Shown piece by piece: positions 6,452-62,592 of a DNA stretch of 64,000 bases. Source of the DNA: Nautilus pompilius (Eukaryota > Mollusca > Cephalopoda > Nautilida > Nautilidae); the NCBI GenBank assembly GCA_018389105.1, contig JACATO010001722.1, positions 62,001 to 126,000 on the forward strand, written 5' to 3'. The position numbers and the translations under genes were made by a program. The notes beneath the pieces were generated by a model, which had not been told where the DNA came from, ran no database searches, and was given only the letters and a program-made list of their open reading frames with translations. Numbering within the stretch: position 1 is the stretch's first letter; each line of letters begins with the position of its first letter.

Positions 6452-9400
6452 CTATTGCACAGCCATATGTGCACAATAACTAACTGAACAAGCGCATATT
6501 TTCCCGGAAACAAGTGAAGTACAACCGTCCTTCAAATTTCCTTTTAGAGATAGAAGATCCATTATCGTAGATAAACATCCATTTAAACAAACTGAAAATA
6601 AGAAAAAGGTATAGACTTAGCATTAAGATTCTATGTAAAGAATGTACATTCATAAATCAAACTGAAATGTATTTCACCTACGCGATAAAATGGGCGCTGA
6701 TTCTCACAACAGTAAAATAAAATGATTAATTGTGAATGTTATACAAAAACATGATGCAGCTTACAGAAATCTGTAATATAATGAAACTTTATGACATAAA
6801 TAACAAACTTTTACAATATCTTAAAATTACGCCAAATGTACACAAGTAAGTATGCTTCAAACCGTTTGGAGTCGCTTAAAATCTGGAAGAAAGCATATTA
6901 TTATAATCTTACGAAAATAAAAACATAAAAGAAACATTTGTTATCGAAAAATCAGCAAATAGCTGTGAAGAGAAAAGTATGAGGAAAATAGTATTTGAAT
7001 ATATTCATTTGTTGGCCAAAGACTAATCGGTTTTCTTTAATACTAAAGGCATAGATGATCATTTACGATAGAAGAAAATTTTACAGAAAAAGACAATTTC
7101 TTCAGTTTGCAGGGCCTTCAGAAATCATTTGTGGGCGAATAAACAATCAGATTTCTGTATTTCACAAATAGAATATAAACATTCCATCCCGATATAACAT
7201 CTTGATTTTTCTGCTAAATATTGCAGCAAAATCGTAGCGAATGATTTCTTAATTGCTCCATAATAAAACCAAAAACATGTCAATTGAATTTTTTTAAAAG
7301 ACTGGATTCTGAAAAGGAGGTGACGGATCCCAAATAGTGTTTTGTATTTAATATTTATTGTTGGTATTAGGTAATAATTTATAGCTGAAGTAGACTTTTT
7401 TCCAAAGTGGTGTTCATGCATGTAAAAGGGGAAAAAGTAATAAGAGACACAGTCAGATCAATCATTACTGTAATAGATGTTCCACAAAGTAATATTGCCT
7501 CATTTACTGACGGAGTTTTTTGTCATAAATACCTAATGTGGCACAGGCAAGTTCATTAAATTGGAGATGAGGAAAGGAAGAATAATCACAATGATCTATA
7601 TTACCGAAGAAAGTTAGGGAGTAAACATCAAAGGATCTTTAAAATGATGCAGCAGAAAAAGGAAATGAACTTTTGCATAACAGCGGCAAAATCAAAAGGT
7701 TGTTAATAAAACAGAAGAATAAATATCTATTTTTCAGACATAAACCACTCTGCAAGAAAGAGAATATCCCTGAAGGCAGAACACGATTTGTACAGATCAA
7801 AAGATTTTTAAAAGGTATTTTTTTAGAATTAAGAGGACATAACTCGTAGATGCTTAATCGAACGACCTGAGTAAGTTGATAAAAAACAATACATGAAAAA
7901 ACCAAAAAAAATCTTTCAACAGCAATAAAATTCGTTCCTAAAACCTTTTCAAAACATAATCCATTTTACTTACTATTTTAATAAATTCCATGCGCAGACA
8001 TTTCACAGATTTACAAGATTCTTTTTTTAAAAGCTACTTCAGTTTTCTGCCATAATTCAGGGTCAAGCAGATTTAATCTGAAAATACTAACAGTATATAC
8101 AGTACACAATTTTTTATAAGTAACAAAATAAAATATATCGAATATAGCTCACCGAAAATTCTGCCATGCTTAAACAGCGCAGAACCACAACGATTACATT
8201 TTCCTTTTGATTTTGAAAGACTTCCTATATCAGCAAAACAGGTTTCATTATAGCCAAACCACTTGTAACAATTAATCAAATCTGTTTCAGAAATCAAAGA
8301 ATAAAGATCACTGTACATATAAAGTGAAATCTATATTCATCACAAACGATTTTCCCTATTAAAAGTTTATTGTGAAAACGATTATTATTTGCAAATGTCT
8401 CTCTCAGGGCGCCTAGATGGAGTGTCTTTGGATGTAATATGCTACCAGATAAAAAGTTGCGACTTGTTGTAATACAGATATCTGTGAAAATTTTTGCTAA
8501 ACTAAACAAACGTGACATGTAAATTATAATATTTGCATTTTATTAGCTATGATGATATAATAATTAAAATGGAGAATCGCTAGATGTGGCGCAAAAAATC
8601 AATCTTGAAATAAAAAGATAAATAACAATAGAGTACGGTTATTTGTCATTTTCATAGCAAGAATTTTTTTTTAATTTTCCTTATCTCAGATTTTCGATTT
8701 TCTCATATATATATATATTTCTAGTAGGCGTTTGGATTGGAGCAATAGATAAGGTGCATGAGGTTTTATCGATTGCTTTTCTATGCTCATGGAGAACAAA
8801 CGTTACCTAAAGTTAAAGAAATTTTTATCACCTTTTCCTGGTTTCAATTCATTGATCACCCGTTGAAAGGAAGAATCATTACCAAAACTATTTCGGATGA
8901 TCAAAACAAAATATCATTGGAATTGGGTTATATATTGTAACGAATTGTCCAAAACCGCAAAAGATTTACTGTCGGTGATTAAAAATAAAGATACCATTAT
9001 CGCTGCATATTCATAAGAACGATCCACATTTGCCCTACAGGCCCAATGAATGGATATTCGATCGATATTTATAATTGTAATGAAACACGTTTTTCGAAAT
9101 GATTCCCAGTAAGTCAAACGCGTAACGACTCTCACGACGGAAAAGCATTAAAAAAAACGAATTATTCCCAATGAAAATATTCCAAAAAGATCAAAATTAA
9201 CAAAGATTAAAAGTAACATAATGGGCCAAAAACAGCATATCCGCCTAAATAAAATGTGAGCTCAATGAGGAGTAAAATTAAATACATATTTCACGGCTTT
9301 ATGTATACTTGTTTGTTTGTGTGATCAGTACCGAAACATATAACATGCAAGAAAAGAAATTTTGATTTTATTCCAACAAATTTTTGTTTATATATTTTCA

Positions 9401-10803
9401 GGTAGAGGTGTATGCTAATCCAGGGTGAAGGTCTTTCTATCAGATTTTTCTCGAAGTTTGAGGAAAATAGAATATTTTTTTCTTCAATCTTTTCCACAAT
9501 CAAACACCAGGAAAACACCTTCCTTTTGTAGAAATGCTGAGTTTCCTTTTATATATATATATATCTAATCAAGTCTAACGGAGAGAGTGGACTTTAATGA
9601 TCGTTAGTTGAACAAATTTATAATAAACAATGTATTTATCTCCATACAATAGCTGTTCTACAAGTTTACACGTCAATGTACAAAATGAAGCATCTGGTTA
9701 ATTGCCTTAATTTACAGGTATTTCATATCTTAATTACACTTTTGTATTAAAAATGTTATTTTAAGAAAGATCACCTTGTAAAATTGCAGTGCGTTGTGTG
9801 CAGGAAAACAAAGACTTTCCATTTTCAGATAATCCGAAGTTTCGCTAATCAGCAGGTTTGACTACAGACATTCTTTTCAGAAACTAAGTTCATTTTCTTT
9901 TTCTAACCATCTACGTTTTCCTAAAATTGTGATATACCTCGTTTCTTGCCCTAACGAAGTTGTCTTAAGAATTTGCTCATAATTGTTATTTTTACTACAC
10001 TGATATCCATTTGGATGTTTTTCTCATTAGTAAAGGAAATATGTGAACACTGTTATTTTAAAAATGAATCAAAATGTCCACTGTTCAGGAAGGAAATTCT
10101 TTGGTGCGAACAATTGTGAATATTCTGCTTCTTCCTACAGCATTTTTAACTGCACAAGCAGCATCTGTTAAAACATTTCTGCTATATAATGATGTGTGTA
10201 CAAACTCTTTCAAAGAACTTGCCAAAAATACGGATTTATCTTTCCCTTTCTGTGCTATCAAACGTTGTTTTAGCTTTCTAATAGGTTTGGAACATTTGGA
10301 TCTATGATTTATGAAGTTTTATAAAAGCATAACAATACTTAGCACATATCTTGGTCTGTATATTACTACTAATCTAAATGAGAAGTATTAACAACAATAA
10401 TTAATTATCTATCAACGATTGAAACTGACGTCGTTAAGCGAAGCATCTTAGTAACTGTGAAATTTATCTGAACAAGGAATTAACACCATATGGCTTGTAT
10501 GAGTAATAAAGGATGGGGGATAGTAATGGACAAATATAAGAAAGTTTACATGAAATTTTGGAAACTTCTTTAAATTCCTATATAAGTGGACTTATGTATG
10601 AATTTAAATCAAGATTATTAGTAACTGAGCTGCAGTGCATCAGTAGATTTTAAAAAAATTAATTCTGAATACTTGGAACAATAAATGGCTAAAAACATAC
10701 CTGGTTTTTTTGGCGGAGGAGGAGGAGGAGGAGGAGAACAGGCATCTTTTGCTTTGGGAAGAAGAAAAAAGACGATTAAAAATATTAGAATATTTTGATG
10801 CAT
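6452..10803 (-). CDS. Secreted cysteine-rich protein, array copy A (three exons)
   Basis: The exons on the minus strand are 10803-10701, 8281-8153 and 6591-6452 (stop included), giving 123 residues. Donors are GTATGT and GTGAGC, acceptors are CAG, and both introns (2419 and 1561 bases) are phase 1. Exon 1 encodes a hydrophobic signal peptide (MHQNILIFLIVFFLLPKAKD), then Ala-Cys-Ser, eight prolines (residues 24-31) and KKP. Exons 2 and 3 carry ten cysteines at 39, 49, 63, 66, 79, 83, 101, 110, 112 and 117, with the same spacing as C, D and E. An N-glycosylation sequon (NET) lies at 46. The usual Asn after the last Cys is replaced by Ala, and the C-terminus is short. The spacing and the C-x-C-x4-C ending suggest a three-finger-like disulfide domain. 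The function is unknown. A likely untranslated 5' exon acceptor (TCCCTACAG) lies about 115 bases before the start, at 10919-10927. The second acceptor is chosen because the upstream alternative at 8308 opens onto a stop. Confidence 0.82.
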
Positions 10804-10918: not shown

Positions 10919-13900
10919 CTGTAGGGATATTTTAATTTTCAGTATTTATATAAAAGAAGATGCGCAACATATTTATTTTGCCAACATTTAAATAAAGTTT
11001 AATTATTAATAATAGTAATGTATGCATAACTTTGAAAAATAATATGCTTAATTATTATAATTATTTTAAAGAAATTTCGTAAATTAATTTCCTCCATTTT
11101 CCGTAATTTAATTCTAGTTTTATTATTAATAATAGATAATAAATGCATAAATTTTAAAAATTTATTTAATTAGCATGATTCTTTATTTAAATAAATTACC
11201 TAAATTAATTCAAAGCCAAAGTAAAATCATTTTTCATTTCAGTGCAAATAAATGATTACATTACTTGTAACTAATTGAAGAGTTTAGCAACATTTAACTG
11301 GTAAATATTAGTGGGTATTATTTTTACAATTATTTTTAAAACCGATTAACTTAGCTTATAAAGGGGAATAATTTTTTAATGTTCGAAATAAAGACAAGAT
11401 GTCGTTAGCTTAATGATTATGAAGAATTAATTATTGCGTATTGTTTTCTGCTTGAAAGGCAAACTAAGCTCAATTATCATTTTTCTTGTTTGCGGAAAAT
11501 AAAGGAAGTTTTCCTTCGTCTCGTTGACGATCAGACATCAAGAACAGCTAACTTGTGTAAAAGTAATAAGCTTTGTTATACTTGTACATATTTCATATCA
11601 TTTAAAGCTTAGCACAGACATTAATGATTCTACGTGGAATCAATTTGAAATAAAACAACGCATTTATCAGAATTCGTCACTAGTTATACAAATATATTAT
11701 TGAATAAACTGGAAATATTTAAATTATTTTATTAAAAGTATTTCTCACTTTTATTTTTGCTTTTCGTTTTAAAAATGTATTTGAAGAATTCCATTGTAAA
11801 AATGTACGTTTTGTCAATGTTGAAAAAACAAAACATTTCATTCTATCCTACGAAAATATAAATGGCCGCTGTTGAGTAAATTTCACTGTAGACATTTTTG
11901 GGTTAAATACATATGTTCCTTCTTTTTTTTCTAATTTCAGAAATTAAAGAAAAAAATTTTGTCATCTTGCTAAATATGTCAAGCGGAATTATTCAAGTTC
12001 CGTTAGCTTTGCAATATATTTATTTTATACTTTAAATAAGTTTTATGTTCTTTTGTCCATAATTGTTTTTTTTTTAAATACAACATCTTTTTGGACGTTT
12101 CAAATTAAGAAAATAACAAACGTCATAACAATGTTCAATAATAATTCATCAAAATGTCTACTGTTTATTACAGAAATTCTTTTCACAATAATTTTAAATA
12201 TTCTGGTTAGTCTTCCAGGACATTAACTGCGCCACTGTAAACTGTAGAAACTGTATTTCCTTTGTATCAGTGATTGTGAAACCTCAATTAATGAACTTGC
12301 TTCTAATATAGATTTATCTTTCTCGCTACATAATATCAAATATTACTGTGGCTCTTTTAGTAAATATGATCAAATTAAAGTTATGATATTTTTAAACTCA
12401 TGATAATTCTTAATACAATGTTAATGTAAATTATCTTACGTGCTTTTTGCCTTGATCTACTTTCTGATAATGATTTTGCTTTTGAGGTCAATCATTGAGC
12501 CGTCAATCTCGGGATTTTAATTTATTGCATTTCTTTGATCAACATAGAGATATTCCTCCTGTAATATTACTAAAAATAAGCATAGATATGATACGATATA
12601 AGTAATGGAATATTTCGAAAAATAATAGTTTTCCCATTCTTTATTTATGTGCACTCAGACTTACATGAAATGCTAATTAATTATTCATTTGATTTCAAAT
12701 GTATTTCCATTTTTTTTTCCATTTGGTAAAATGCTTTTTTCAAGATAATTAAAATTTAAAATGTCTGGTGGTTCTTTTTTTTTTTTTGAAGGTGCAGATC
12801 ATACCTGTGTTTAATGTCCAAGAAAAGAAACAATAATAAAGTTTCGGTTGTTTGAGTCATAATGACAGTTTCTAGCTGTTTGTGTCTATAGACGAGAACT
12901 CTTCCAACAAAAACAAAAGCAACAAAATGTTTTCTATTTAATTTTTTTAACAGTCTCAAGCTCTGCGTCTTTTAAGATGATATTTCTTATATTCGATTCT
13001 GCTTCATTTAATTTCTAAGTTAATTATTTATTATCTCAATTTTTGATAGATATTGAGAAACGCTTTAATATTTAATTATTAAAATAACTCAGTATTTACA
13101 TAATTTATGAAAATTAATGGAAAGGGTGACTGAAGGACATATGTTCATTTCAGTGCTGATGATGCATTGAATTTCTATCACAAAATTATAATGGTAAGCA
13201 ACGATATTTTGTAAGAAATAGTTAACATACTGCTTTAAACGAAATTTTAAAGGGCGATTACTTTAGCATATCAACAAAAATTTTGTTTCTGGTTCCGTTC
13301 TCAAGAAAGATAAAATCGGATAGATGATCAGGGAAATTCTCGACCAATATTTGGACAAGATGTATCAAACTGAACTGGTTTTCTTAATAAGAAAGCGCTT
13401 ATTTGCATACATGTGTCTTTTTAACTGTCGTATAAAATCAAATCTTAACATTTATTCTTCCTTAGAAATGCTGACTTTTTTCAGTACAATGATTGCTAAA
13501 TAAAGAGTGCATGTCAAGGAATCAAACGGGGAACCTTCATTGGCCAAACATACATTTATATTATTTATCTATGGTGATATTTATCAAAAGTAAATGCTAT
13601 AATTACAGGCAGACAACAGTCAGCGAGGTTACGAATTTCCCACAAAAGAACGAAAGAGATTCTGAACGATTCAGTTAACACTGTCAGTATCCGCCGCACA
13701 AATATCAACAGAAAGGAATGGATGGTGGGATAAGCGCAAATAAAATCTAAAACCAATGCTATTTTGCCTTAGTAGATCATTACTCATTCGAAAAGAAGTT
13801 GAATCTGCTGTAACAAAGGCAGAACTAAATTCATAGCATTTATTTAGCAGAAATCTATCCAAGAGATTTTGTTTTGTCTTGGGAGAAACAAAGAAAATGA

Positions 13901-15955: not shown

Positions 15956-15970
15956 ATCATTCATTTGTTG
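15940..15970. other. Inversion junction between minus- and plus-oriented units
   Basis: To the left, sequence follows the 5' end of unit A in minus orientation up to a short poly-C run at about 15946-15953. To the right, sequence matches the downstream flank of a plus-oriented unit, comparable to about 34900 onward in unit C. Homology with the other units therefore breaks and flips strand within about 30 bases. Confidence 0.6.
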
Positions 15971-21729: not shown

Positions 21730-24700
21730 ATGTCTCAACATATTCTAATATTTTTAATCGTCATTTTTCTTCTTCCCAAAGCAAAAGATGCCTGTTCTCT
21801 CCTCCTCCTCCTCCTCCTCCACCAAAAAAACCAGGTATGTTTTAGCCATTTCTTATTCCAATTATCCAGAAGGTAATCTTTTAGATCTACTGATGAAGTA
21901 CAGATCAGTTATCAAAAAATCTTCATTTAAGTTCATATCTAAGTCCACTTATACAGGAGTTAAAAGAAGTTTCCGAGTCCTTTTAGAAAGTAACAGTCCT
22001 TACATTTGTCCATTAGTGTCCCCATCCTTTATTACTCATAGCAGCCATGTGATGTTACATCCATGTTCAGATGAAATTCACAATCACTAAGATGCTGCGC
22101 TTAACGACGTCAGTTTTTGTCTTTGACAGATAATTGACAGCTGTTAATACTTCTCATTTTGAATAAGTAGTAATATACAGACAAAGATAACAGACATCTC
22201 CCATGTGCTCACTATTCTTGTTTTTTTGGTCAATACAGAAATCGATGATCTAAATTTTCTAAAATTATAAGAAAATTAAAACATTTGATAGCTTATAAGA
22301 GATTGAGAATTGTAAATATCGAGCGGATATTCACTCGTTCGGTTTATAGACCAGACGTGGATTCGTTCTCACGAGTATGCAGTGAAAATGGCCTCTTTGT
22401 TTTTAGCCACATGGTTCGTGGCATTAAATGTTTGGCGGTTTCCGACAATTCTTTACAATATATAACGCAATTCCTACTCTACTCAATGATGATGCTTCCT
22501 TTTGATCATCCAAAACAGTTATGGCAGTGATCCTTTGTTACACCAGGTGCTCGTTGTATTAAAACCAGGAAAAGAAGTCGAAATTTCTATAACAGGAGAC
22601 AATGATTGTTCCCTGTCAGCGAAGGAGAAAGTAATTGATCAAGTCTCACAAGTCTCAATCACCTACCGGAAGAAATATTTGACATAACTGAAAATCTGAG
22701 ATAAGGAAAATTCGAAAAAAAAATATATAATTCTTTCATGTACAAATGAAGATAATGGAACTCTAGTTATTATCTATCTTCTTATTTCTCTAGTGATTCT
22801 TGCACCGCATTTATCGATTCTCTATCTTAATTATTTAATCATCATAGTTAATAATATCCATGTATCTGAATCTAATCGTCACCTTTGTTTCGTTTACCCA
22901 GCAGACAAAATCTCACAGTTATATGTATTCCGAGAAGTCGGAACTCTTTACCTAATATCGTGTTACTTCCTCGGACTACCCACCTAGGTTCCCTGTGACA
23001 AATATTTACGAATAATATTCTTTTCACAAGAAATAATATTAAATATGGAAAATCTTTTCTGATGAACATAGATTTCACTTTATAAGTACAGTGATATATG
23101 TTATTTGTTTTTCTGTACAGTTCTGATTACGTGCCACTATTGGATAGGCGATCCAAAAAGCTGTCTAACTACTACCGATGAATATCCAATAAACGTCAAA
23201 GTTAATTGTGTTCGTTGTGCTACTGCGTTTTACAAATTTCAAAAAACTTTCCGTGAGTTATATTCCATATATTTTTTTTCATTAATTCTAAAACTTGCGT
23301 ACTGTATATTTTGATAATATTTGTAGAATATTTTCTTGACTTTGAATTCCAGCAAATAGCTAAAGTAGCATCTTTACAGATCGTCCAAATCTTCTGAATG
23401 TCTGGGCATGGAATTTATTAAAATATCAAGTAGCATGGATTAAGTTTTAAAAAAAATTTTTGGGTATTCCTGAAATAGCTTTGGAACGATTTGTCTTTGT
23501 TGTTTGTCACGACCATTTGTATCCAGATCTTACATGCGCACGATGAACTCGTCATCATGGGATTCTGGAGTTCATGGATGCAACTTTAAATTACTACCCA
23601 TAGTAGAAGCTTGACATTCAGGATCATCTTAAAAGGTATTAATTTTGGCTCGGAAACTATAGAACTCTGGAAAAATATCTCGGCTACAGACATCCGACAT
23701 TCTAAAACACGGAATAATTCCCATTTGATAAGTGAGATTGGAAGCTTACAAAAGTCGTATTAGTTTAATGTGATTCCTTATAACAACAATTTACAGGTAA
23801 ACTACAGTAGATATCTTTTCCAGGATTATATAATAACAAGAAAGCATAAATGTATAAGTTTGGAGTTTTTTATTAATATTAACATTTCACTATTTTCATA
23901 ACCAAAAATAAAACACAATTATAACGTACGTTCGGTGTAGAAAATTAAAATAAAAATAAGATTATGAAATTAAACAATTCAATTAAACCAACTGTGTAGA
24001 TCAAATAAATAGTTCATTACCTTTAAAAATTAAACTAATTCTATTATTTGAATGCGCTGTAAAATTATGTTTTGATGTCGATAAAACTGAATTCATTCGA
24101 AATGTTTTTATTAGGTCATAAATGGATATTATTTCAATTCACTATTACAGCATGTATTTTGTAAGGTAGAACTAAACTAACTGATCTTTTCTATCTTTTG
24201 TCAGAAGAATTTTTTTGGAAAATAAACTGATGCACATATTTAATTATTTCTGAAAACAGGAGACTTTCACCAGGGTGGCGCTCTTACATCTCTCGTCTAT
24301 ATATGTTGTGTTAATTATTCCTAAGAACTGTATAGATGTCTTATGAGTTAGTTGATGCTTCTTTACTAGAAACCATGAATTCTCAATGATATTTAATGGC
24401 CTCGTTTCTTTCAATTATTTTGTGTCCCGTAGATTCTATTTTCTACTTTCTTGATGCCAAATAAATGGATTTTCGAATTTAATTGCATAATCGTGTGTAA
24501 GTCCAATGATGCACTACATGTTCTCGATGTCATCTGTTAAAGGAATGCAATTGTAGCGCATTCCAGCTCTGAAAAAACATTCTTGAACACCTAATACCAT
24601 TCTGTATTTAATTATTTTGTTTTCACCCGTACATTATATCGCTTAAGTTAAATACGATTCAGTTTGGTTTATGAATTTACGTTGTTTACATAAAAAATTA

Positions 24701-24887
24701 TTGCTACATATATAATTTTGTTCTGTTTTCAGTGTGTAGAAGAGGATGTTTATCTATATCAATGGAAAAGATGAAAATAAAGGGAAAACTGCAAGTCGGT
24801 TGTCATACATTTGCTTCTGGGACAATATGTGTTTGTTCTTCATCTAATTGTAATAGAGAATCCATGAAGCCATACTTTCGAACATGA
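21730..24887 (+). pseudogene. Secreted cysteine-rich protein, array copy B (looks broken)
   Basis: Three exons homologous to those of copies A and C are visible at 21730-21834, 23121-23252 and 24733-24887. They have GTATGT and GTGAGT donors, CAG acceptors and introns of 1286 and 1480 bases. Exon 1 starts with a hydrophobic signal peptide close to that of A (ILIFLIVIFLLPKAKDAC). Exon 2 shows the C-x9-C-x14-C-x2-C pattern. Exon 3 shows C-x3-C-x17-C-x8-C-x-C-x4-C followed by Asn. As read, the three exons do not give one continuous product, and about one break is apparent. The remaining exon sequence looks well preserved, so the loss is either recent or a sequence error. Intron 2 is closely similar to that of C, making B and C near sisters. 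Confidence refers to family membership; the broken state is less certain. Confidence 0.7.
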
Positions 24888-29553: not shown

Positions 29554-31105
29554 TATTTTTCGAAATATACCAGTACATACGTCATATTATAATTATGATT
29601 TCTGTAAATAATATTACAAGAGGGATGTCTCACTCTTGTCCAAAAAAATTCAATAAATTAAAAGAGTTTTACAGCTCAATGCTTGTCCACGAGAACAGAA
29701 GCATTATCAGAAAGTAGATCATGGTAAAGCAAATAAGATACTTTACATTACTATTATGTTAATTATTATTATAGTTTTACAAAAATTAATAATATCATAA
29801 GCTTAAATTGATCAAATATATGAAAAGGCTACAGCAACATTTGGTATTACTGAAGGTGAGTGATAAATCTATAATTTTGACAAGTACTTTAAACGATATT
29901 CGTCAATCACTGATAAAAATCCTGTACGGTTTCAAAATTTTCGTGCGGCGGAGTTCAAAGTGATCGAACCAGAGCTTGAATACTTAAAATTGTTTTCAAA
30001 AGAATTTAAATGATCAACGGTAGACATTCTGATGAATTATCACTTACCGCCGTTCTGATTATTGTTTTTACAAATATGAAACATAAAACTAATTTTAAAA
30101 AAGAAGATAAATATATGACAATCCTAATGGAACTTGAATAATTCAGCTTGACATATATAGCAAGATCACAAAATTTATCGCATTAATTTCTGAAATTAGA
30201 AAAAAATAGAATGAACTTATTTATTGAAAACAAAAATGTCTACAGAGAAACTCACTCAACAACGACCTATTAATTTTTTACATGATGGAATGAAATGGTG
30301 TGGATTTTCAACATTCATCACACTACAAAGTTACAGTGGAATTTTTACTTCAAATACCTTTAAAGAAAACAAAAGCATAATTATATTGCGAAATACCTTT
30401 TGAAAAATACTGTAAATAAATACTTTATTCAATGATTATAAAGTTGTACAAGTATTGAATTCGATAAATAGACAGTTGTATTTTAAATTAATTCAATTTA
30501 GAATCATTAATATCTGAGCTCATCTATAAATAAGATGAAATATGTACAAATATAAAACTATGGATTTTCTTGATGTATGATCGTGAATAAGAATAAAGAG
30601 AAAAAAATTCCTTTATTTTTCCAAAGTTCAAGAGAAATCAGAAAGGAAAGATCGTAATTGAGGTTAGTATACCTTTCTAGCTAAAAATCAATAAGCAAGA
30701 ATTAATTTCTAAAATCTTTACGCTTAAAGACATTGTATCTTTATTTCTAAATATAACAAAAAAATTCTTTCCCTCTGTAAGTTAGGATAAACCACGTATT
30801 AATAAAAATTGTAAAGTTTAATATGTACTAATATTTAATCTAAAAACGTTGCTAAACATTTCAATTTCCTATCAGTAATGTAATCGTTAATTTGCACTGC
30901 CTGGAACAAATGATTGCCATTTATCCTTCCTTTAATCAAGGCAGTTACCTATTGTAAAGAATTATCTTAGTTAAATAGAATATATTCCATATTTATTCAT
31001 ACATTATGTATTATTACTAATTTATCTAAGATTAATTGATAGCAAATTGAATATGAACTGCGCCTGCAACAAGTATAAATATTGAAAATTAAAATATCCT
31101 TACAG
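26331..31105 (+). repeat. Upstream flank of gene C, part of the repeat unit
   Basis: Homologous to the flanks of B and D in order and orientation. It holds the ORF-like block at 27485-27817, the conserved block 28730-29150 and a GA microsatellite. It ends at TCCTTACAG (31097-31105), the likely acceptor of an untranslated 5' exon, 108 bases before the start codon of C. Confidence 0.6.
29484..29551 (+). repeat. (GA)n microsatellite
   Basis: About 68 bases of uninterrupted GA dinucleotides. The paralogous position in unit D has only a short GA stretch just after the Tc1 element, so the tract expanded in unit C. Confidence 0.95.
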
Positions 31106-31213: not shown

Positions 31214-34200
31214 ATGCATGACATTAATCTAATTTTCTTAATCGTCTTTTTTCTTCTTCCCCAAGCAAAAGATGCTTGTTCTCCATCACCACCTCGAGAT
31301 CCACCTCCAAAAAAGCCAGGTATGTTTTTAACCATTTATTATTCCAATTATTCTGCAAGTACATTTGACAAATATCTTCAGATGTAATGCAGTTCATTTG
31401 TCACAAATCTTAATTTAATTTCACACCTATGTCCGATTACACGAAAATTTATAATAGGACGAAGAACGCTTTAGAAATGGATCAGTCCTTCCATTTGTCA
31501 CTACTATTCCCATCTCTCTGTACTATTACAAGCGCAACGACTTTAATTTGTTGTTCAGAAAAGATTCACAGTGACTGAGATGACAGCTTGCACGACCGTC
31601 GGTCTCCGTCGTTGACAGATCACCACTAACAGTTGTTGGTGCTTACTAATTTAGTTAATAGTAGTAATTTACAGACTAAAAGCTGTCATGGCAGCCGTAG
31701 AGGAGGGAAATTTGTTATTGACTTACCTTGGAGTTCTTTTGTGGTGAACTATTCTTCCAGCCATCCTAATGACTCCTTAAATAATCCTGTTTAAAATAAA
31801 CGTTATGAATTTAATTCTGCCAAGGATACAGCTGATTATCCTTTTTTGTCAAATAATAAATAATTCGAATTATATAATTCTAATACTCATCGATTCCCAA
31901 TTGATTTTTATTGTTTGTTTCCCTGCTAAACTCGAATAGAAATAGAAAATACAGAGTGAAAACGATACCCGGTGGAGTAACTCGTCCAGTATCTGTGCGT
32001 GAGTTGAACGCTTATAATTCGCTAAACAATATGACCTTTAAATTTGTAGTGTTTATGATAAAACAATTAATTCCTACGGAAATTAATGAGAATGATGAAA
32101 ATCTGCGATATTTAAAAAAAACAGAAACTGTTGTTAGATTTGCGAAGTGATTAAGTTACATTAAAGTTCTTGTTTTTATTGCTGAAACAGAATGAGCAGA
32201 AGAAAATAGTTCAAGTAAAACAGGGGAGATAACCGGCATTACCCGTATAGTAAATATTCTTATACTATTTTAAAATTCAGATCGTAAACCTAAATTAACT
32301 ATAATTATTAAAAAGCTAAATCAACATTTGAAACCATAGAAAGAGAAAGATAAATCTGTATTTCTTGATGACGCATTTTAAATCAGGTCCTACTATTAAT
32401 GAGATTTACCGTATTTGTTATCCATTTTCTTGTCTACAACTATTTCCGCACCCAATCAGCAATTATCCTTAATTACTTTATCATCATTTGTTATAATATT
32501 CAAATAATTTAATTTCATTACCCAGCTTGTTTCGATTAGCAAGCTGACTGTATTTTTTCCAAAATACAGATGAAAATAAAAGGATTTTATTCAAAATAGG
32601 CATTTTTTTAGATGTTAACTTGATCAGATATTTACAATAAAACTTTGTTATTATCACAATAACTTGTTTATAGGAGCAATTGCATATAATAATTGTAAAT
32701 TTTATTTTATTTTTTTTGAAATTATATATATAGAAACACAATATCTTAGCTGCTACAGCGAACTAGGAAAATTGCCAGATGACTGCCTAGCATCTCTTGG
32801 TGCAACTATAGATATCCCCATTATGAAATGTAAACGTTGTGCTGCTGGAATTTACAAGTTTAGCTTCTTCTTGTGTAAGTATAAACCTACTACTTTTTAT
32901 TTTAGTAATTTTAAGGTATTCTCCTACCGCAGTTTATACTAAAATCTATAGATTATCAGTTTGATCATGATTTACAGTAAATAGCTGAAGCATTTTCTGT
33001 GGATTCTGTACTTATCGTAAATATCAGTGCTTGGAATTTATTAAAATGTCGAATAATATGGATTATGTTTTGAACAAGGTTTTCAGGTATTCCTGTAATT
33101 GCTGTTGAACGATTTGTCTTGATTGTTTGGTCCGTACATTACTATCAACATCCTCTTATACGTGCACAATGGCATGGCATCTTCATCCTGGTATTCTGGA
33201 GACCTTGGTTGCAACTGTGTATCCGTTTCAAGTTTTCAAATTATTATCGCCAGTAGATGCTTGAAAGTTAGGTTAATCTTTTTGAAAGGTAGAGAAATTA
33301 TAGCTGAATTACCTTTGGCAAAATACCGTGTAGGAAAGTCAGCAAAAACACAAATATGCATCCGACTTCATTTTTGGATCCATGAACAAATCCATGATCT
33401 TTACTGTCACCTTATCTAATTTTAACCAACCTTTTGCGTCATTTCCTCTTAATCAGTCAGATGGGAAGCCTATGAAAGTGAATTTAGTTTAATGTGATTG
33501 CGTATAGAAACAATTTACAGGTAAACAACATTCGATCCCTGATCAAAGACTACATAATAGTAAGAAAATAAAAATCTAAAAGTTTGAGTTTTACATTTAC
33601 AATAAAATTTCACTATATTCCAAACGAAATTAGAAACAATAAAGAATTATACTGTACATTCGGGGTAGGCACTTAGTATAAGAATATGATGATGGAATTA
33701 AACAGTGTAGCTAAACCAACCGTGTAGATTAAACAAGTAGTGAAATACTTTTCAAAATTAAACTAATTCTATTATTTGAATATGCTGAAAATGTATCTAA
33801 AGTCGCTAAAATCAGGACCCATTCAAAACGTTTTTATTAGGTCATAAATGATATTATTTCAATTCCATAATGGAGCAAGTACTTTGTAAAGTAGAGCTAA
33901 ACTAACTGATCTTTTCTACCTTTTGTCAAATGAATTTTTTTAGGAAAGAAACTGATGCGCATATTTACTTATTTCTGAAAACAGGAGACTTTCACCAGAG
34001 TGGCGCCCTTCTATCTCTCGTCTATATATGTTGTGTTAGTTTTTTTCCTAAGAGCTGTATAGATGTCCCATGAGTTAGTTGATGTGTCATGTGAAACCGT
34101 GAATTCTTAATGGTATTTAATGGTTTCGTTTCTTTCAGTTATTCGGTGTCCCGTGCATTCTCTTTTCTACTTCGTTGATGCGAAATAAATTAAATTTTCA

Positions 34201-41189: not shown

Positions 41190-43042
41190 TATAAATATAG
41201 AGAGTGAGAAAAGAAATTATTTTTCGAAATGTACCAGTGCATATATCTTATCATATCTATGTTTTATTTTATTTATAATACAAGAGGAATGTCTCACACT
41301 TTCTCAAAAGAAATTTAATAAATTAAAACACAGACTGTTACGACTCATTTATTGTCCACAGGAGCAGAATCATTATCAGAAAGTAGATCATGGTAAAACA
41401 AATAAGATAATTTACATTACCATTGTTTTAATAATTATTACAATTTTACAAGAATTAATAATATCATAAGCTTAAATTGGTTATATTAATAAAGAAACTA
41501 TAGCAACATTTGATATTACTGAAGGTGAATAATAAGTCTACAGTTTAGGCAAGTTCTTTAAAAGAGGTTTTACGGTAATTGATATAAAGCAGGTACAGTT
41601 TCTAACGTTGACTGTACCGCAGTTCGAAGTTCAGAAAGACTAACCAGAATAGGTAGAATTATATTTTCAAAGGAATATCCACAATCAAGTGTAGACTTTC
41701 TGATGAATTATTATTTTACCGTCGTTGTGATTTTTGTTTTTAATAATGAGAAACATCCAAAAAATGCTGACGTAGTAAAAAGAAAAGTGATAGACAAATT
41801 AACATAAGACTACTTTAAACAGGAAAGTAGTTATATTACAATGCTAAAGGAACTTTAATAATTCCGCTTGATATATTCAGCAAGATGATAAAATTTCTCG
41901 CATGTATAAATGAAATTTTAAAAAATTATAATGAACTAATTTATTTAAGAAAAAATTCCCACAGTGAAACTGTCTAAACAACGACCTTTTTCGAATTTTT
42001 CAGATTGAAACGATTTGGGAGTCTCTCGCACATTCATCACACTATAATGCTACAAAGGAGTTCTTACATCAAATCCTTTTCTTGAAAAACACAAAAGCAT
42101 AATAAAAATAAGAAATACTTTTAAAAAATAATTTAAATAGATTTATAGTTTATTCAATTATGTTTAAAGTTGTGTAACAAGTGATGAATTTTGACAAATA
42201 TGGTTTCATTTTAATTGAATCCATTTAGAATCTTTAATATCTGTGCACATCTTTAAATGAGATGAAATATACAAAAGTATGAGAAACTAAGTATGTTTAC
42301 ACATGATAGGTGTGTTCTTGATGTCTATTCGTGAATGAGACTTAAGATGACAAACTTTATTTTTCCCAAAGTTCAAGAAAAATCAGATAAGAAAGATCAT
42401 AACTGAGGTTAGTATACCTTTCAAGCAGAAAATCAAAAAGCAATAATTAATTTTTAATAATATTTTCGATTAATGGAATTGTCTTTATTTCGAACATTAA
42501 CAAAAACTAATTCTTTTCCTTTAAGTAAAGTTAACCCATGTTTTACAAATAATTGTAAACTTAATAATTACTAAAACTTGCTAGAAAACACTGATAAATA
42601 ATTCAGTTTGGTAACAGAAATGTAATTATTCATTTGCACTGCTTTGAACAAATATGTTTGACGTGTTTTGAATTAATTTACCTAATTGCTTAAAGTAGTA
42701 AAAAAACTATGATATTTAGATGGGATATTTTTTTAATTTATGCATAGATTACCTATCATTGATGAATTATCTAAAATTATATGATGGCAAAATGAATATG
42801 TATTGCATCTACACATTTATAAATATTTAAAGTTAAATTATCCTTACAGATAATCAATGTCTTGATCACTGTTCATAAATTAAATAATATGCACATAAAT
42901 TATATAAATATTAAATAATAAAATATCACTTCATAATATTCACGGCTTCATAACTGCCAACTAATTTTAAGAAAGGCATTTGATTGTTTTTGTGTTGTTA
43001 GAAGGCGACCTGTTTTAAAATAACAGCTAAGGGCCATTCAAG

Positions 43043-52680
<9,638 letters not shown>

Positions 52681-53660: not shown

Positions 53661-53669
53661 GGTAATGAC

Positions 53670-55234
53670 ACTAGTTTAACATTGAACATATTCAACTAAT
53701 ATTTAATTAATCACAAAATATTATGCAAAAACTGAGATACGATTTAAATTGCATATTATTTAAATAAATATTGAATATTTAATGTTCGAAAAATTAGTTG
53801 TAATCGCTCTTGGTCAAATTCACAAAATGATTGTGTGACCCCGTCTAAATATGATATTTGAACTCGGAATGGTAGTTGTTTTTAAAAATGCTTCCAGTAG
53901 AGTAAAATCATCTAATGTTGGATTTTTTTGGTATTTTATCCAGTCAGTTCAGCCATAAAGTCTATGACTTACCATTTGCTGATAAATTAATTGTAAGGTC
54001 CAGATGTTTCTGTCAGGCAACCTGGCAAACGGTTAACCAGAGTTGACTGTGAAAGACTTTTCCTACGAATCAGCTGTAGGCCTGACTAGAACTGCCAGAG
54101 CACAGTGCGGACCATCATATGTTATGACCACAGAACTAATGACAAATGGACCCACAAACCAGAAACCAAATATAAACTGCGGAACAATTAATCGAAGGAC
54201 GATCTGCTAATATGTGAAAGGGTTGGGTAAAGTCAGGGTGCTGCCCCGCATGGTTGTTGTCAGTTATTCAATGAAAGTTTTCTTTGTGTTTGCTCTACGT
54301 GAATGGTGTCTGTCGTTATCAACAGAGTGAATCCGGTTTTGGTTTTTGGTGTTGATGCTTCGTGTGACGGCTCTGCGACAACCCATTAACCACTTTGTGA
54401 AAAGGGGGAAAAAAAAACCTGTCTTTCCTTTCGTGGCCAATCGTGATCTGGCTCTTCACATTTGCCTGGATGTATAAAATATTTTAATTAGTTTAAATAC
54501 AGTGTTTTCGGTTTGTTATGATGAGATGGATAAAAGGCGTACAATTGCGTTGTTTTTCAGATATTTATTACCAACAAACCTGGTCAACAATGAGAATCAC
54601 TTTTCCGCATCATGTTCCTTGTCGGTCTCTTCAAATCTACTTTTGCTTTTGTTATTTTCAAATGCACTCAGAAAAGGTCAGTGCGTCTAGAGAAAAACGA
54701 ATATTAAAATTTGATTGTTTACGACAGTGAAAATCAGTGAAAGTAAGAAAACAAAAGTTTTTTTACTTATTAATAAAATAACTTTAGTTTACTGCAAGCA
54801 TTAGAGCGTTTAATTATTTGGGGAAAGTGTTCTTTACACTTGATTACTTTGTCATTATTTCGAACGATAAAAGAAAAAAAAAAGAATTTTATTTTTATAA
54901 GTTGGAATAATCGCCGTTTTAAAATTGATGTTAATGTTGTTCATGAAATATTCTTTTTAAATAAAAAGTATATAGACGCCTTAATTTGGTATCATTAATT
55001 TAAACATTCATGTCCATTGCTCTAATTATATTTTCTCAGTCAATTTTGCATTAATTTGCATATTTATTTAAAATAAGAGAAATATGACAAATTGAATATT
55101 AAAACATTTTTCGAAATCTATTCATACGTTACCGATTATAAATAATCAATGTAAAAATAAAATGAAAGCAAATTCGATATGCGAGGCACGTACAACAAAT
55201 ATAAATATTCAGATTTTTAAAAATATCACTTCAG
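53670..55234 (+). repeat. Shortened upstream flank of gene E
   Basis: Sequence from about 53670 matches 36620 onward in unit D (for example 53800-54010 with 36890-37120), then jumps to text matching about 19300-19450 in unit B. Only about 1.6 kb separates the unit start from the gene, compared with 4.5-5 kb of non-transposon sequence in the other units. It ends at a TTCAG acceptor-like site (55234), 95 bases before the start codon. The ORFs near 54502-54730 are not conserved. Confidence 0.55.
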
Positions 55235-55329: not shown

Positions 55330-58300
55330 ATGCGTCAAGAAACCCTAGTAATTTTGATTGTTTCCGTTCTTCTTCTCAGGACAATAGATGCATGTTCTCC
55401 TCCGAAACCAAAGAAAAAAGACCCGGGTATGCTTTTCTCGACATATATATATATATATATATTTTTTTTCAAATTATCCTGAAAGTAAATTAATTTTTTA
55501 AAAAGATTTATTGATGTAGCATAGTTCACTTTTCATGAATAATTAACTAAATATCTCGTCCGAGTGAGGACGTAGTTTTATTTTTAATTTAGTGCTCACA
55601 AGCAGGCAAGAGTCCGACATGGCAGTTGTAAAGCGGGGAGATTTATTAAACAATCGCCTAATGTTTTCTTTGTGGTGAATTATCCTTACAAAGAAAAAAC
55701 TGTTGAATCGTTCGGTAAATTTGTGTTGAATAATTGCTATAAATTTAGCTCGTTCTCTTGCCACAATTAATTATCTTTTTTCAAATAAAAAATAATGTCA
55801 ATTTGATATTCTCTAAAGTGGATAACTTTTTAAAAAGTATTCTTTACCCGTATCAATGTACCCATCTAACTCCAAGTAATTAAACAGCGCATTATCATAA
55901 TGTCAGATTTCCTCTTTTTTTTATTTGATGTTTTATAACTCAATGTTCTTCATACTATCAGGTCGTTATAAACATTTTGTCGGTTTTTATATTATGTTAA
56001 TTTGGGGTTCATTTTTGCCCGCTTATGAAGGTGTACGTAGATAAGTTATATATCGTTTTGTAGCGTGTGCTTAGGCATACATTATGCAAAACCTACCTTT
56101 TTTAAAATCATAAAATGGATATTTGTTACAGGGTTCTGAGTGAAGCATTGGTAGATATCTTTTCGTGCCATTTCGCTTCACGAGTTTAAACCAGGACACA
56201 AAGCGAACGAGACAACTCGTAACGTTAAGACAGCATGGGGCGAGGACACAGCAAATGAGTGCACCATACGACGATAGTTTGTAAAGTTTCGATCAGGAGA
56301 TATTGAGTCTCGAAGATAAGGAACGTATCGGACGTCCTTCCAGCTGTGATGAGGACTGCCTGCCTCAGTTGAAGCCGATGCAAGAAAAACAGTGCGGGAA
56401 ATTGCTGGAGAGCTTTTCGTAAGCACTGCAACTGTTTCCCGCCATCTTGACACAATCGGCAAAGTGAAGAAGCTTGAGAAGTGGGTGCCTCACGAGTGAA
56501 TGAGCAACAACAAAATCGTCAATTGGAGATCTGCTCTTTGCTTGTCATAATAAACAAAAACGACCCATTTCTTGACCGAATCATTACGTGCGATGAAGAA
56601 TGGATCCTTTACGACAATCGCAAACGATCAACACAGTGGCTCGACGGATACAAGGTGCCTAACCACATTCCAAAACCCAGCCTCCACCCAAAGAAGGTCA
56701 TGGTCACTGTCTGGTGGACTGCCACTGGTGTCATCCACTATAACTTCTTGCAACCTGGCGAAACCATCACTGCTAAAAGGTACTGTCTTGGATTAAACGT
56801 TGTTCATCAGAAACTCTCCCAACGACAGCCGACATTGGTGCATCGAAGATGCCCAATCCTGCTCCACGACAATGCTCATCCTCATGTTGCAAAAGTGACT
56901 CTTCAGAAACTGAACACGGAGTAGGAAGTTCTCCCTCACCTAGCCTATTCACCAATGACATCTTCCCCCATATGAAATGCTTCTCTAACCAAGCAGCAAT
57001 TGAAACTGCCTTCCAATGGTTTATCGACTCCAGAAATGCAGATTTTTTTTCAAAATGGTATAAATGCGCTTGAAACTCATTGGCAGAAGTGTATTGATTG
57101 TAGTGGAACTTACTTTGATTAATAAACTTCACGTTCGCCAACAATATGAACTCTCATTGTTGCGGTTAAAAAAACAAAATATTTGTAACGACCTAATAAC
57201 AAAAACCAAAATATACGTATTATTTCCAATCTGACTGGGTGCAGACTTTTCACTTGTTTGGTGACATTCTCTTGTTAATTTTTTCAATATTAATATTTTT
57301 AATGCTTTCCTACATCAATTACATCGCGGATTTCGATCTTCTCATATAAAAATAACATTATTAGAATAAAAAAGGACCACTTATAAGTTTTCATCCTTTG
57401 ACCGAGCTTAAAAATAGCTAACAATTTCCTTTAATAACCCATAACGTTGAATTTATTAATCTTTCTGGTAAAGAAAGCTCGGATATGTTTTGATACATTA
57501 TGCAGATATTTTATATAAAAACAGCCTATGCAAATTTACCAATCAAGAAATAAAAAATACCTGTAAATCTGCTTTTTTATAGTACAAATGCGAAACAAGG
57601 AGAACATTATCCCCCCCCCCTTAATTTTTGTGCGAATTTTAAAATTGCAATTTAAAGTTTCCCTCCAGAGTTGATTGAGCCAGGTTGGCAGATATACAAC
57701 TCTAATGGACATAACTGAATAAGCCCATTTCTATTTAGATTTCTACAGTAAAGAAATTAACACAGCCTTCTTATAAAATTTACTGAGAGATATAACATTA
57801 AATTGAAAGTGCGCATATCACACGCAAATGGAGTATGGTAGCTAATTAAAAATCTAAAGTTAGAGCGTGGTAAGAGAAACGTCTATATCACCGCAGCAAA
57901 AATGATCGTGGGCGCACATGCTAAGTTGCATAACATGAATATGCTATTAAAGTTTAAATAAAAATTTCTTTTTCAGAAGAGAAAATTAATAAAGTTACGT
58001 ATCTACAATTAATTTATTGTACACAAGTTCTGTTCGAATAACTAATGATTTTATAAGCATAAATGTGTTAAAACTACCTTAAAATATTTGGCAAAAAATG
58101 GCTATTTTAAGAATTCAGTATGACAAGTAAGACGTCCGGTATATTTACATGTGATAGAGTGATATGTTGTTGTTATTTTTTTTTTTAAAAAACCCGAAGA
58201 TCTGACCTGCTACAGCAGTTTTAGTCGAGGAAGGGAATGTGTGACAACTAAGACTACCAAACTAAAAGCCACCATGGTTAAGTGTAAACATTGTGCTACT

Positions 58301-61300
58301 GGAATTTACAAAACTGACGATACCTGGGGTAAGCTGGATCTAGTATATTTTCTTCGCAGCCTTTAAAAAGCTGCAGCCTACTATAGATTTTGCTTGTGCA
58401 ATACTTATTTGAAAAATCATTTTGGGTGATTACTTCAAGCGCTTCTTCCATCGTATAGAGTTTGTAAAAGATGTCTCATCATGGAATGTATCAGAATAAT
58501 TCCAGTAACATGGAACAGATTTCTCCACAACTTTTGCTGGTATCCTCATAATTGAACCTTTGCAATATTTTTTGGCTGTGTATCCGAATCTTTCTAAAAA
58601 TTCTCTAATAAATGCACGATTTATTTTCCATTCTGGTATTTCATATGTCTGGTAAATGACTGCTTTCTAATTCGGACTCTTGTAGGCTTTGACGATTTCG
58701 GATCAGTGGAATTTTTTTGTTTCAATGATTTGTTTCATATGGAGATGATTGCTGAATAACTGGTAAAAAATAGACACAACAGAATACAGGAAACATACAG
58801 ATCGCTATGGATTAAATTTAATTGTGACTATTGGTAAGGTGTAATCGATCTCGATCCAAAACTGTATAACAACGACAAAATGAATACCAAAAAGTTAAAA
58901 TAATAAAAACTTTATAGATTTTCATTTCTTATTTGCATTTTTTAATTTAAAAATGAGAAAAAGGAAAATTCATGTAGTTATGTAGCTACAATTTTAAAAT
59001 TATGTTTTAAATTAATCAAAACTTTAAGATGAACATCCACAGAAGCATTAGACAGATAATCACATACACATAATGGAAGATAATGGACATTTACTTTGGT
59101 GCAAAGAATTAAAATAACAATAGGAGGATGGAATTAAGCCAACTGTGTACATTTAACAAATACCACCAAACTTCTCAGAATTAAATTGTTTCCATTAGTT
59201 ATATATGCTATAAATTATCGCGAGGTCAATAAAACATTCTGACAAATTTATTAAGTATATCAGAGTTCTTAAATGTTTATTTTAATTATGTAATGCAACA
59301 GAAAGTACTTTGTAAGGTAGAAACCTATTAAATACATGACTGTTGGAAGACTTTTCAAAATAAAAAATTTTTAAAAAACGGAATATAGTAACTCTTCAAG
59401 TCATACTACTAAGTTGTACTTGATATCTATCTCTCTTTTTCCTCTTATTTGCATATCATTGTACACAGTTGAAATTCAACAAACTTGGTAAGTTCAGCAA
59501 TTGTGCAAGATCTTTCACATTACTGGCAATAGATAATTGTTATCTTTTACTTTTCTCTCAAATGTAGTTTTCTTTAGAAAGCTAAAACCCATATTCAGCT
59601 GTTTGGGAAAACAGCATTCTTTCACTACAGCGATGCGCCTTTAATTTTTACAGCCTCTCTTTAGTCAAAATATGTTGATCTGATTTTTTTCTCATTAACT
59701 TATTTTTTTGTCTGAATTAGTTCATGTATCAATATGAAGGACTATTTATTTTTCTTTGGGCGTCATTTTATTGGGTTTTCAGCCTTTGCATGTGATTTCC
59801 CACAAGTGCTCTTTGATACCTTGTTTCTGCCAGATTAAATAATTTCTCTACCTTATAACGTCACAGTGCGCAGCTCGAGTGAAGCACAACACTACCTGTG
59901 CTGATGTTTCTTGTAAAACAAAGAATGACGGTTCTAAGGTTATTTCAGTGCTCTTATTTTGGTAATTCCAGCACGAAAGAAACATCTGAAAAGTTGTTTT
60001 ATATTCATCTGACAGGTAAAATCTGTGAATAGAATATCAGCTGCAGTCACTTCATATTCTTCCTTGTAGTTAGTGGAATAAGTACCTGCATAAATTTCTC
60101 TGCCCTTTTAAAATCCGGTAAGGTTAACTCATTCAGTTTTATTTCATTTCTCGTCGTTTCTTTGGCAGATCCATTTTTATACTATTATTGGTTACCTTAT
60201 ATCCTTTGTGGTAACTTCACAACCTCATCTTTTAGACTGGTCTTTGTTTCTGCAGCTGTTATCAAAAGAATCATTTCAGTTATATGCTGCGTAATCTTTT
60301 ATAAACGTTTGATATTAATCCCCCAAATCGTTCGTGCAGGAATTTTTTATTTGTCAACTTTTTCCCTTCTGTTTCCATTTAGACATGGTACATTTATTTC
60401 TGGAACGTGTATTAGAAAATTAAATAATTCTGATGTTTGCTTTTGTCATTTCGATAGCGAGCTCAATAAAAAACTGATTTTACCATTTCAGCTATGAAAT
60501 CGTTAATAAGTATAAGAAATTCTTTTGCGAACATTTATTCATGAGTGACTGGCGAGAATACTTTCTGTTATATTATGAAGAAACTGGACAATGCTTTCAA
60601 AAGATTTCTGAAGATTTAATCAAATTGACAATTATGGCATTAGCTGTAGAATACACGCCAATATCCTACTTTATCTTCTGTGCTCTTATTTGTGAGAAAA
60701 CCTGACCGTTTATTGATCAGCAACTGATTCTCCCCAAATACAACTTTCTCCATGCGTTTCTCTACACCGCAATTTACGCTAATCAGTCGAAAATTAGAGC
60801 TTTTGTTTAATTTTTCACGTTTCTAGAATGTTACTAATATCCATTGTTTTTTTTAATATCTAAGGTTTTGCATCGTCTCAAACTGATAAACAATCTTAGA
60901 AGTGTATCGTTGGCATAATCTGCAAATTAATTTGTTAGAGAGGACATATGTCCAAAATGTCCTCTGGCCTTACAACTTTCTGAAAGCTACATTCTTCCTT
61001 TCCAAAATATAATTTTTGCATAAATGTCCTTTCTAAAACCTCATACTGTTCCGCCATTTTTTCAGTTAGTTTTCTTCACTACATTATAATTTTCACCATC
61101 CATGCAATCTTATTGTTGCATGCAAAGATATTTGCTTCTATTTTTTTATCAGTGGTTTCTCAATTCTATTCGACTTTTGCCATTGATTTTCATCAATTTC
61201 ATCTCAATCTTTTTATCGATCCAGACAACTTTCTAATAACTTTCCACTTTAAAAATAAATAATTTTTAAAGTCAACTTTTTAACGCAGCATGTAACTAAA

Positions 61301-62592
61301 TATAGCTTGTTTTTTTGGCATTATCAAAAATATTCTTGTTTTGTTCTAAAGAATATTTCCTTTTTTATGCATATCATTAGATTATTGTAGACGTTCTTCA
61401 AATTTTTGTCGAGTAGAATTCCTTTAAATTCTTTGCATTTGCCCTTGGTAAGTTTTTTTTTTTAATCTTTTAGAGTTGCCTAGTTGAGCATCGAACATCT
61501 GTACTTTATGGTTGATGTTCTCAAGATGTGCTAATTATCTTCGTGTAGCTATAGGTCACACATTAGTATAGTAACGAGTTTGCTTTTTCGCAATTTCATC
61601 TCTTTACATAGTGAAATTAGCACCTGTCTATGGCTACTGCCACGCAGTCAATCACACACTTGGCTTTTAGGTTTGACATTACCTTCACTGGCAGAACCAA
61701 AGTGTAGTGTTGCTGGGCACTTTTCCTAAAGTAACACGCTGTCGTATTATTACTAGTTCTCATGAGGATGAAACAACTATTAGTTTGTCAGTTTTCTAAT
61801 TCTCTTCTACAGATACCCACGCCATAGCTACAGATGAGTGGGCGTTTTTTTTTAAATCTCCTATCTCACGTTAGCTCTTCCTGTACAACCAAGAAGATCT
61901 CTGAAATGTCGGGAGTGGACACTGTTAAAGTGGAATATTTGCCTGTTTATATTTAATTATAGTTCCGGTATTTCAGCCTTTTCTTTCAGGTTGCAATATT
62001 GTCTTTACCCGTATTAGGGCTCAGTTTCTATTTTTAAAAAGTCCCTTATCTTTTACAAATGAAATGCTAATTTTTTTAATGTATTTATATATGCAAGCAA
62101 TTGCTCTTGTTTCATTTTCATTCTGTTTAATTATCATTATTACCATCCAACGATTTTCCCTCTTCGTAAGTCATATTTTTCGAGATTTTACATCTTAAAG
62201 GAAATCTACCAGTGTCTCTAACTCTGCTCTACGAGAAATGTAGCAGGATGCATAGCATTATGTCAGTATCATTGACGCACGAACTCAAATTTCTGCACCA
62301 CAACACCAAATTAACGCTCCATAAAGCAGCCTTATGTGTTGATCTACATTGTAGTATTACATAATAACATAAGTGTGTTTTTGCCTTGTTTTCAGAGTGT
62401 AGAAGAGGTTGCTCATCTGGTTTTGGATCAGAAGCAGAAGCGAAAAGATTGCTGAATGCTGGAGGCTGCGCTTTTGAGAAAAATTACGTTGTATGTCTGT
62501 GTTCTTCAAACAAATGCAATGGTGACACTCACAGAAAACTGGAAAAAATAAAACCAACGAAACGGCTTCCTCGTTTCTTCCGTTATCTCTGA
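55330..62592 (+). CDS. Secreted cysteine-rich protein, array copy E (three exons, basic C-terminal tail)
   Basis: The exons are 55330-55426, 58200-58328 and 62396-62592 (stop included), giving 140 residues. Both introns are phase 1 (2773 and 4067 bases), with GTATGC and GTAAGC donors. The signal peptide (MRQETLVILIVSVLLLRTID) leads to ACSPP and a Lys-rich linker (KPKKKDP). The domain cysteines are at 36, 46, 61, 64, 77, 81, 100, 109, 111 and 116, then Asn117. Unlike the others, E continues for 23 more residues, rich in Lys/Arg and aromatic residues and ending RFFRYL, with a Lys-Arg pair that could be a processing site. A mariner lies in intron 1 in the same direction. It is closest to D. The function is unknown; the signal peptide and disulfide pattern imply an extracellular protein. 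Confidence 0.84.
55958..57196 (+). mobile_element. Mariner-family DNA transposon, decayed, 1239 bp with TA target duplication
   Basis: The ends are tcaggtcgttataaacat (left) and, as reverse complement, ttaggtcgttacaaatat (right), each flanked by TA. The length is right for a mariner. It lies in intron 1 of gene E in the sense direction. The transposase inside matches the cecropia/Hsmar1-like mariner group. Confidence 0.9.
56190..57122 (+). pseudogene. Mariner transposase remnant (cecropia/Hsmar1-like)
   Basis: The open stretch 56481-56924 reads RIITCDEEWILYDN (first catalytic Asp), then MVTVWWTATGVIHYNF, PGETITAKRY and PILLHDNAHPHVA (second Asp). Upstream pieces in other frames match the helix-turn-helix part, ending TVREIAGEL, STATVSRHLDTIG and KWVPHE, with stops between. 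After a stop at about 56922 the C-terminal part continues in another frame (AAIETAFQWF, then HWQKCIDCSGTYFD before TAA at 57120-57122). About 15 residues are missing around the third catalytic Asp. The protein is not functional. Confidence 0.88.
57200..58190 (+). other. Rest of intron 1 of gene E, homologous to intron 1 of D
   Basis: AT-rich intron sequence that matches D near 45900-46160 and 47090-47290. It includes a poly-C run at about 57611-57620 that has a counterpart at about 45920-45930 in D. No gene or transposon is seen. Confidence 0.5.
58360..59190 (+). repeat. Block nearly identical to 47440-48600 (E copy)
   Basis: E partner of the D block. It begins about 30 bases after exon 2 and ends near 59190, where the ordinary paralog divergence resumes. 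It lacks the extra stretch present in D. Confidence 0.75.
59191..62390 (+). other. Rest of intron 2 of gene E
   Basis: T-rich intron sequence, homologous in segments to intron 2 of D. The ORF at 60162-60497 reads hydrophobic residues but is not conserved in frame in D. No exon, RNA gene or complete transposon is recognised. Confidence 0.5.

Follow-up and report, generated by a model that had tools for sequence, protein, structure and literature searches.

What kind of protein is encoded by the repeated genes of this 64,000-nucleotide stretch of DNA (the whole of which is called the window here), and how have the copies come to differ as they do? A first-pass annotation had read them as five genes for a secreted, cysteine-rich family with some likeness to Ly6/uPAR proteins. 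Our analysis points to an atypical three-finger-like family that is a probable relative of the LU (Ly6/uPAR) proteins and not a proven member.

Gene models and layout of the array

Rebuilding the gene models from the sequence gave four intact genes, A on the minus strand and C, D and E on the plus strand, each with three coding exons (Table 1). Every intron of these genes is bounded by GT-AG and lies in phase 1, the length of exon 1 is 1 mod 3 in all four, and domain cysteines 4 and 5 lie on either side of the second intron. The encoded proteins are 123 (A), 133 (C), 116 (D) and 140 (E) amino acids long, so that the three-exon, phase-1 plan and the range of 116-140 residues given earlier are both borne out for these four genes. 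The count of five genes has to be amended: because exon 1 of copy B is out of frame with its exon 2, the array holds four intact genes and one broken copy, in which exons 2 and 3 are open, and there is one partial relic besides. In this sixth copy, at the left edge of the window, homology resumes upstream of exon 1, and therefore exon 1 and the 150-300 nucleotides 5' of it are missing; tblastn found no exon-1 peptide match at positions 4-847. Inside intron 1 of gene E lies a mariner transposase relic (56478-56921; PF01359, E 2.5e-25), and intron 1 of gene D carries an ATA microsatellite of about seventy copies (46869-47077) shortly 5' of exon 2.

Self-alignment, with matches counted at no less than 150 nucleotides and E<=1e-15, resolved duplicated units of roughly 10 kb that are mostly 68-78% identical. 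Orientation changes at a head-to-head join near 15966-15988, the leftmost units being inverted compared with the others. The introns are mosaic: most of intron 1 of B resembles A, and most of its intron 2 resembles C. The beginnings of intron 2 in D and E (47416-48850 and 58329-59416) are 85-91% identical, next to an exon 2 that is 55% identical, and may represent a conversion tract or a constrained element. A 140-nucleotide block is common to intron 2 of B (23981-24120), C (33709-33848) and D (48553-48692), and a Tc1-like transposase relic (PF13358, E 3e-13; four related proteins) occupies 40347-40778, between C and D. The composition is 31% G+C with a CpG observed/expected ratio of 0.88, values that would speak against a vertebrate source. 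Rfam at gathering scores and a tRNA scan came back empty, as did a plasmid megablast of 40000-60001 (20001 bases).

Alignment of the upstream regions revealed a TATAAATA box 130-147 nucleotides 5' of the start codon, together with a AAAATATC block, in A, C, D and E; upstream of copy B the TATAAATA box, and with it the TATA motif, is absent. The combined TATAAATA...AAAATATC pattern occurs four times in the window, each time before an intact gene, versus a mean of 0.01 in shuffles. Since the pattern was written after the alignment had been seen, its presence in the four genes is by construction, and the finding is its absence elsewhere in the window. At the other end of the genes, a poly(A) signal lies 59-89 nucleotides past the stop codon in A to D, within a shared block of which E has a degenerate form. 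The block occurs five times in the window; the fifth occurrence (53763-53774), about 1.1 kb past D and with no known gene before it, is perhaps another relic. The short 3' ends, with the poly(A) signal of A to D just past the stop, would hardly accommodate an exon for a GPI anchor, and proteins A, C, D and E all lack a hydrophobic tail.

Table 1. Exons, core-promoter-like blocks and poly(A)-signal blocks of the array copies
Feature	Position	Strand	Remarks
Gene A core-promoter-like block	10926..10950	-	TATAAATA...AAAATATC
Gene A exon 1	10701..10803	-	putative signal peptide, CSP, proline-rich linker
Gene A exon 2	8153..8281	-	domain cysteines 1-4
Gene A exon 3	6452..6591	-	domain cysteines 5-10, stop
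Gene A poly(A)-signal block	6378..6389	-	62 nt past stop
Copy B exon 1	21730..21834	+	105 nt; frameshifted in proline-coding tract
Copy B exon 2	23121..23252	+	open; splice sites intact
Copy B exon 3	24733..24887	+	open
Copy B poly(A)-signal block	24947		same as A's
Gene C core-promoter-like block	31074..31098	+	
Gene C exon 1	31214..31319	+	
Gene C exon 2	32734..32874	+	
Gene C exon 3	34473..34627	+	
Gene C poly(A)-signal block	34687		same as A's
Gene D core-promoter-like block	42903..42927	+	
Gene D exon 1	43043..43136	+	
Gene D exon 2	47290..47415	+	
Gene D exon 3	52550..52680	+	
Gene D poly(A)-signal block	52770		same as A's
Gene E core-promoter-like block	55200..55227	+	
Gene E exon 1	55330..55426	+	
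Gene E exon 2	58200..58328	+	
Gene E exon 3	62396..62592	+	basic 22-residue tail beyond C-N-G
Sixth copy, partial	4..847	-	homology to A's intron 1 (9166-10030)

Cysteine frame and resemblance to LU and Quiver

The spacings between the ten domain cysteines are 9,13,2,12,3,17,8,1,4 in A, 9,14,2,12,3,17,8,1,4 in B, 10,14,2,12,3,17,8,1,4 in C, 9,12,2,12,3,18,8,1,4 in D and 9,14,2,12,3,18,8,1,4 in E. Six of the nine (x2, x12, x3, x8, x1 and x4) are identical in all five copies; the invariance of x12, x3, x8, x1 and x4 previously described for A, C, D and E thus agrees with the measured values and extends to B. Among 82 ungapped columns of the five copies, the invariant ones are all ten cysteine columns and two others, a result with a chance of 3e-11, a figure that is somewhat favoured because exons 2 and 3 had been located by cysteine motifs. 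Kinship within the frame is independently supported by exon-by-exon tblastn and by DNA homology of the flanks: by tblastn, exon 3 of A matches that of C at E 1e-12, B at 4e-11 and D at 3e-5, and that of E only at 0.30. A, C, D and E have an eleventh cysteine as well, placed after the hydrophobic stretch that exon 1 encodes; the start of exon 1 is probably a signal peptide, and the proteins are probably secreted. Their net charge (K+R-D-E) is +7 to +15.

The LU domain has ten plesiotypic cysteines starting C1-x2-C2 and, in its classic form, no residue between C8 and C9; a C-x3-C is found in human LYNX1. The array copies, in contrast, lack C2, so that the earlier statement that their first four cysteines depart from the classic LU order stands (the first spacing is 9-10), and they have one residue between C8 and C9. 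The terminal C-x4-C-N of the LU domain, annotated earlier as a C-x-C-x4-C-N end, is present in four of the five copies, and in A the final C-N is C-A. The excerpted text of one LU survey describes genes with three exons, one for the signal peptide and two for the domain, with phase-1 introns of which the second sits at the loop 2 tip, and with a frequent arrangement in clusters, and a GPI anchor predicted for all 45 Drosophila LU proteins (PMC6600238). Three coding exons, phase-1 introns and clustering are shared by the array (PMC6600238, from the same excerpt), and its second intron would lie in the finger-2 region. The suggested likeness to Ly6/uPAR is strengthened by exon number, phases and clustering, but C2 is absent, and the single relevant Pfam match, that of E to QVR, is below threshold. 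Because of this gene anatomy and the cysteine frame we regard LU descent as likely, and claim membership of neither LU nor QVR.

The nearest comparison within the LU group is fly Quiver (QVR, PF17064; an insect Ly6), in which, according to the excerpted text of PMC4735452, binding to Shaker and to a nicotinic receptor requires no loop other than loop 2. Alignment of the array proteins with Quiver puts nine of their ten domain cysteines in the same columns as its cysteines. Both have a C-x2-C before finger 2 and the C-x-C-x4-C-N end, and the distance from C1 to C3 in Quiver is 10, the same as in gene C. Unlike Quiver, the array copies are without C2 and without one cysteine of Quiver's C-C pair, they carry an extra cysteine just past intron 2, four residues before the LU C6 equivalent, and their proteins have no GPI tail such as that predicted for the Drosophila LU proteins. 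Which cysteine of the array's C-x3-C pair corresponds to LU C6 is not certain, as comparison with the C-x3-C of LYNX1 would make the two C6 and C7.

Gene E matches QVR over the whole model (1-86), its score of 15.5 bits falling short of the Pfam cut-off (27.3), with an E-value of 0.037; a hand-made consensus scored 14.1 bits over model positions 1-86, and fly Quiver scores 42.7. The Pfam search gave no QVR match for A, B, C or D. Twenty shuffles of E with the cysteines held in place gave no match to QVR; however, the same decoys matched five other families, one decoy each, at E 0.011-0.14, so that the value for E is weak and by itself at chance level. An hhalign comparison of the array family with 56 unique Quiver domains gave a probability of 0.85%, a noise-level value that was also attained in 8/80 full and 7/80 cysteine-fixed column shuffles. 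Against single sequences, the real score was reached by 10/60 cysteine-fixed and 1/60 full shuffles for fly Quiver, by 7/60 and 2/60 for CD59, and by 37/60 and 44/60 for LYNX1.

In wider searches, Pfam, queried with the four intact proteins and with the domains of all five copies, yielded no above-threshold family, QVR for E being the only relevant lead; NCBIfam, run with C and E only, gave none either, and a PDB sequence search gave nothing better than E 0.25. Matches to NCBIfam PP0621 (17.9 vs 45 bits) and Pfam VIR_N (10.6 vs 27.7) were far under their cut-offs and were rejected, and PDB matches to lysozyme and ribosomal eS27 (E 0.25-0.85) were taken as chance. Two-finger conotoxins were likewise set aside, the excerpted source giving intron phases 0,2,0 versus 1,1 in the array genes. 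An exact-word-limited search for homologs of A, C, D and E among 5.8 billion proteins, from sources that include nr and UniRef, returned 410 candidates, none at E<=1; within that exact-word limit, the view that the proteins belong to no described family is upheld. Adding fly Quiver and B to the search brought in 312 proteins at E<=1, and the 120 listed all carry PF17064; as it was the fly sequence that attracted them, they lend no support to membership.

Divergence of domain exons and their flanks

The domain exons of the intact copies differ by 38-62%. The ten pairs of copies and two domain exons give 20 comparisons of exon with flank, taken as testable where at least 100 nucleotides of flank could be aligned by BLAST. 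Domain-exon divergence exceeded flank divergence in all of the eight comparisons, out of 20, that were testable (P 9e-3 to 1e-19), a result that is favoured by BLAST counting only alignable flank. Divergence was 0.42 against 0.23 for exon 2 of A-B, 0.33 against 0.21 for exon 3 of B-C, and 0.46 against 0.06 for exon 2 of D-E. The first two of these are the fairest comparisons, with 426 of 500 flank bases aligned in each. An initial comparison of exons and flanks, favourable in all pairs, was discarded since the aligner gave an identity of 0.68 for unrelated DNA.

Under a stricter test, a single plain alignment of each exon plus flanks with uncorrected P, four of the eight comparisons reached P<0.05 (A-B exon 2, B-C exons 2 and 3, D-E exon 2), and A-B exon 3, A-C exons 2 and 3 and D-E exon 3 gave no support. 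The 12 comparisons of remoter pairs showed no difference in plain alignment, where the flanks of these pairs are near or not far above noise level (median 0.44). Exon 1 shows the reverse tendency in three pairs, its identity of 0.95 in A-B, 0.84 in A-C and 0.78 in B-C (P=0.06 for B-C) lying above that of flanks at 0.68-0.81; in C-D, however, exon 1 has the lower identity (0.52, with flanks at 0.72 and 0.61). The dN/dS ratio is 0.39-0.96 in the ten pairs, never above 1, and both pN and pS have high values within the exons, pN often being close to pS. The signal is therefore divergence of whole exons and not a classic excess of dN. As read from these alignments, the working parts of the array proteins seem to change faster than the surrounding DNA.

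Competing explanations and comparison with toxin genes

We give about an even chance to the explanation that the tandemly duplicated genes encode secreted, basic proteins with 11 cysteines and an atypical three-finger structure (LU/Ly6-like, nearest to Quiver) that act as ligands in an arms race. The fold would be closest to that of Quiver, and the LU disulfide C2-C3 would have lost C2; C3 is probably rescued by the new cysteine located four residues ahead of LU C6, in a putative bridge between fingers I and II, and the cysteine just past the signal peptide would then be available for bridging at the N terminus or for dimerisation. With no GPI tail encoded, and after predicted cleavage of the signal peptide, the proteins would be released free, and such free basic proteins may serve as extracellular protein-binding ligands. 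Duplication would be followed by diversification of their finger surfaces, with the cysteine frame unchanged, in the manner of an arms race of venom or saliva, reproduction, or immunity.

An unlikely alternative is another disulfide-rich fold, sharing no descent with LU proteins, in which the C-x-C-x4-C-N ending arose by convergence. Such a fold would be in keeping with the lack of any above-threshold family, profile or PDB match, with the missing LU C2 and the extra cysteine, and with the 10 of 60 cysteine-fixed shuffles that equal the real score against fly Quiver, but it would make a coincidence of exon number, both phases, clustering, the place of the second intron and nine aligned cysteines all at once. 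Somewhat unlikely, in our estimate, is a conserved three-finger protein outside any arms race, which might, like Quiver/Sleepless, be secreted and modulate nicotinic receptors or potassium channels; its copies would be old, and gene conversion would have homogenised their introns. The dN/dS values below 1 in 10 of 10 pairs, the high pN and pS alike, the mosaic introns and the tract-like start of intron 2 in D/E, 91% identical beside a 55%-identical exon 2, all suit a conserved role; yet conversion that spares just the domain exons would itself require selection against homogenising, and the search of 5.8 billion proteins, within its exact-word limit, turned up no ortholog. That the array is dead or dying, with all copies pseudogenes, we consider very improbable: B is frameshifted and without the TATA motif, and the sixth copy has no exon 1, but in four copies the reading frames, the splice sites and every cysteine are preserved and the promoter block is present, despite the extent to which their domain exons differ.

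Should the preferred reading of a three-finger fold be correct, the array would add an LU variant in which one classic disulfide is replaced and the protein is free and secreted. Three-finger toxins are named only for snakes in the excerpted text of a paper on green-lacewing venom (PMC12758981). It is a quite unlikely extension that an invertebrate has independently derived, from a Quiver-like three-finger gene, a multigene family whose products are free, secreted, rapidly diversifying and disulfide-rewired, and which would be the counterpart, in its venom, saliva or seminal fluid, of the snake toxins. An array of this kind in an invertebrate, with the same excess of exon over intron divergence, would open convergent recruitment to a direct test. 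Viperid three-finger toxin genes are described, in the excerpted source, as having alike introns, switched exon segments and fixed cysteines (PMC2474615). Similar to those genes, the array has two introns and three exons, introns that are more alike than the domain exons, and cysteine positions that are kept (PMC2474615, same excerpt). Unlike the viperid toxins, it has another cysteine frame, and it probably comes from another lineage, to judge from its CpG observed/expected ratio of 0.88 and 31% G+C.
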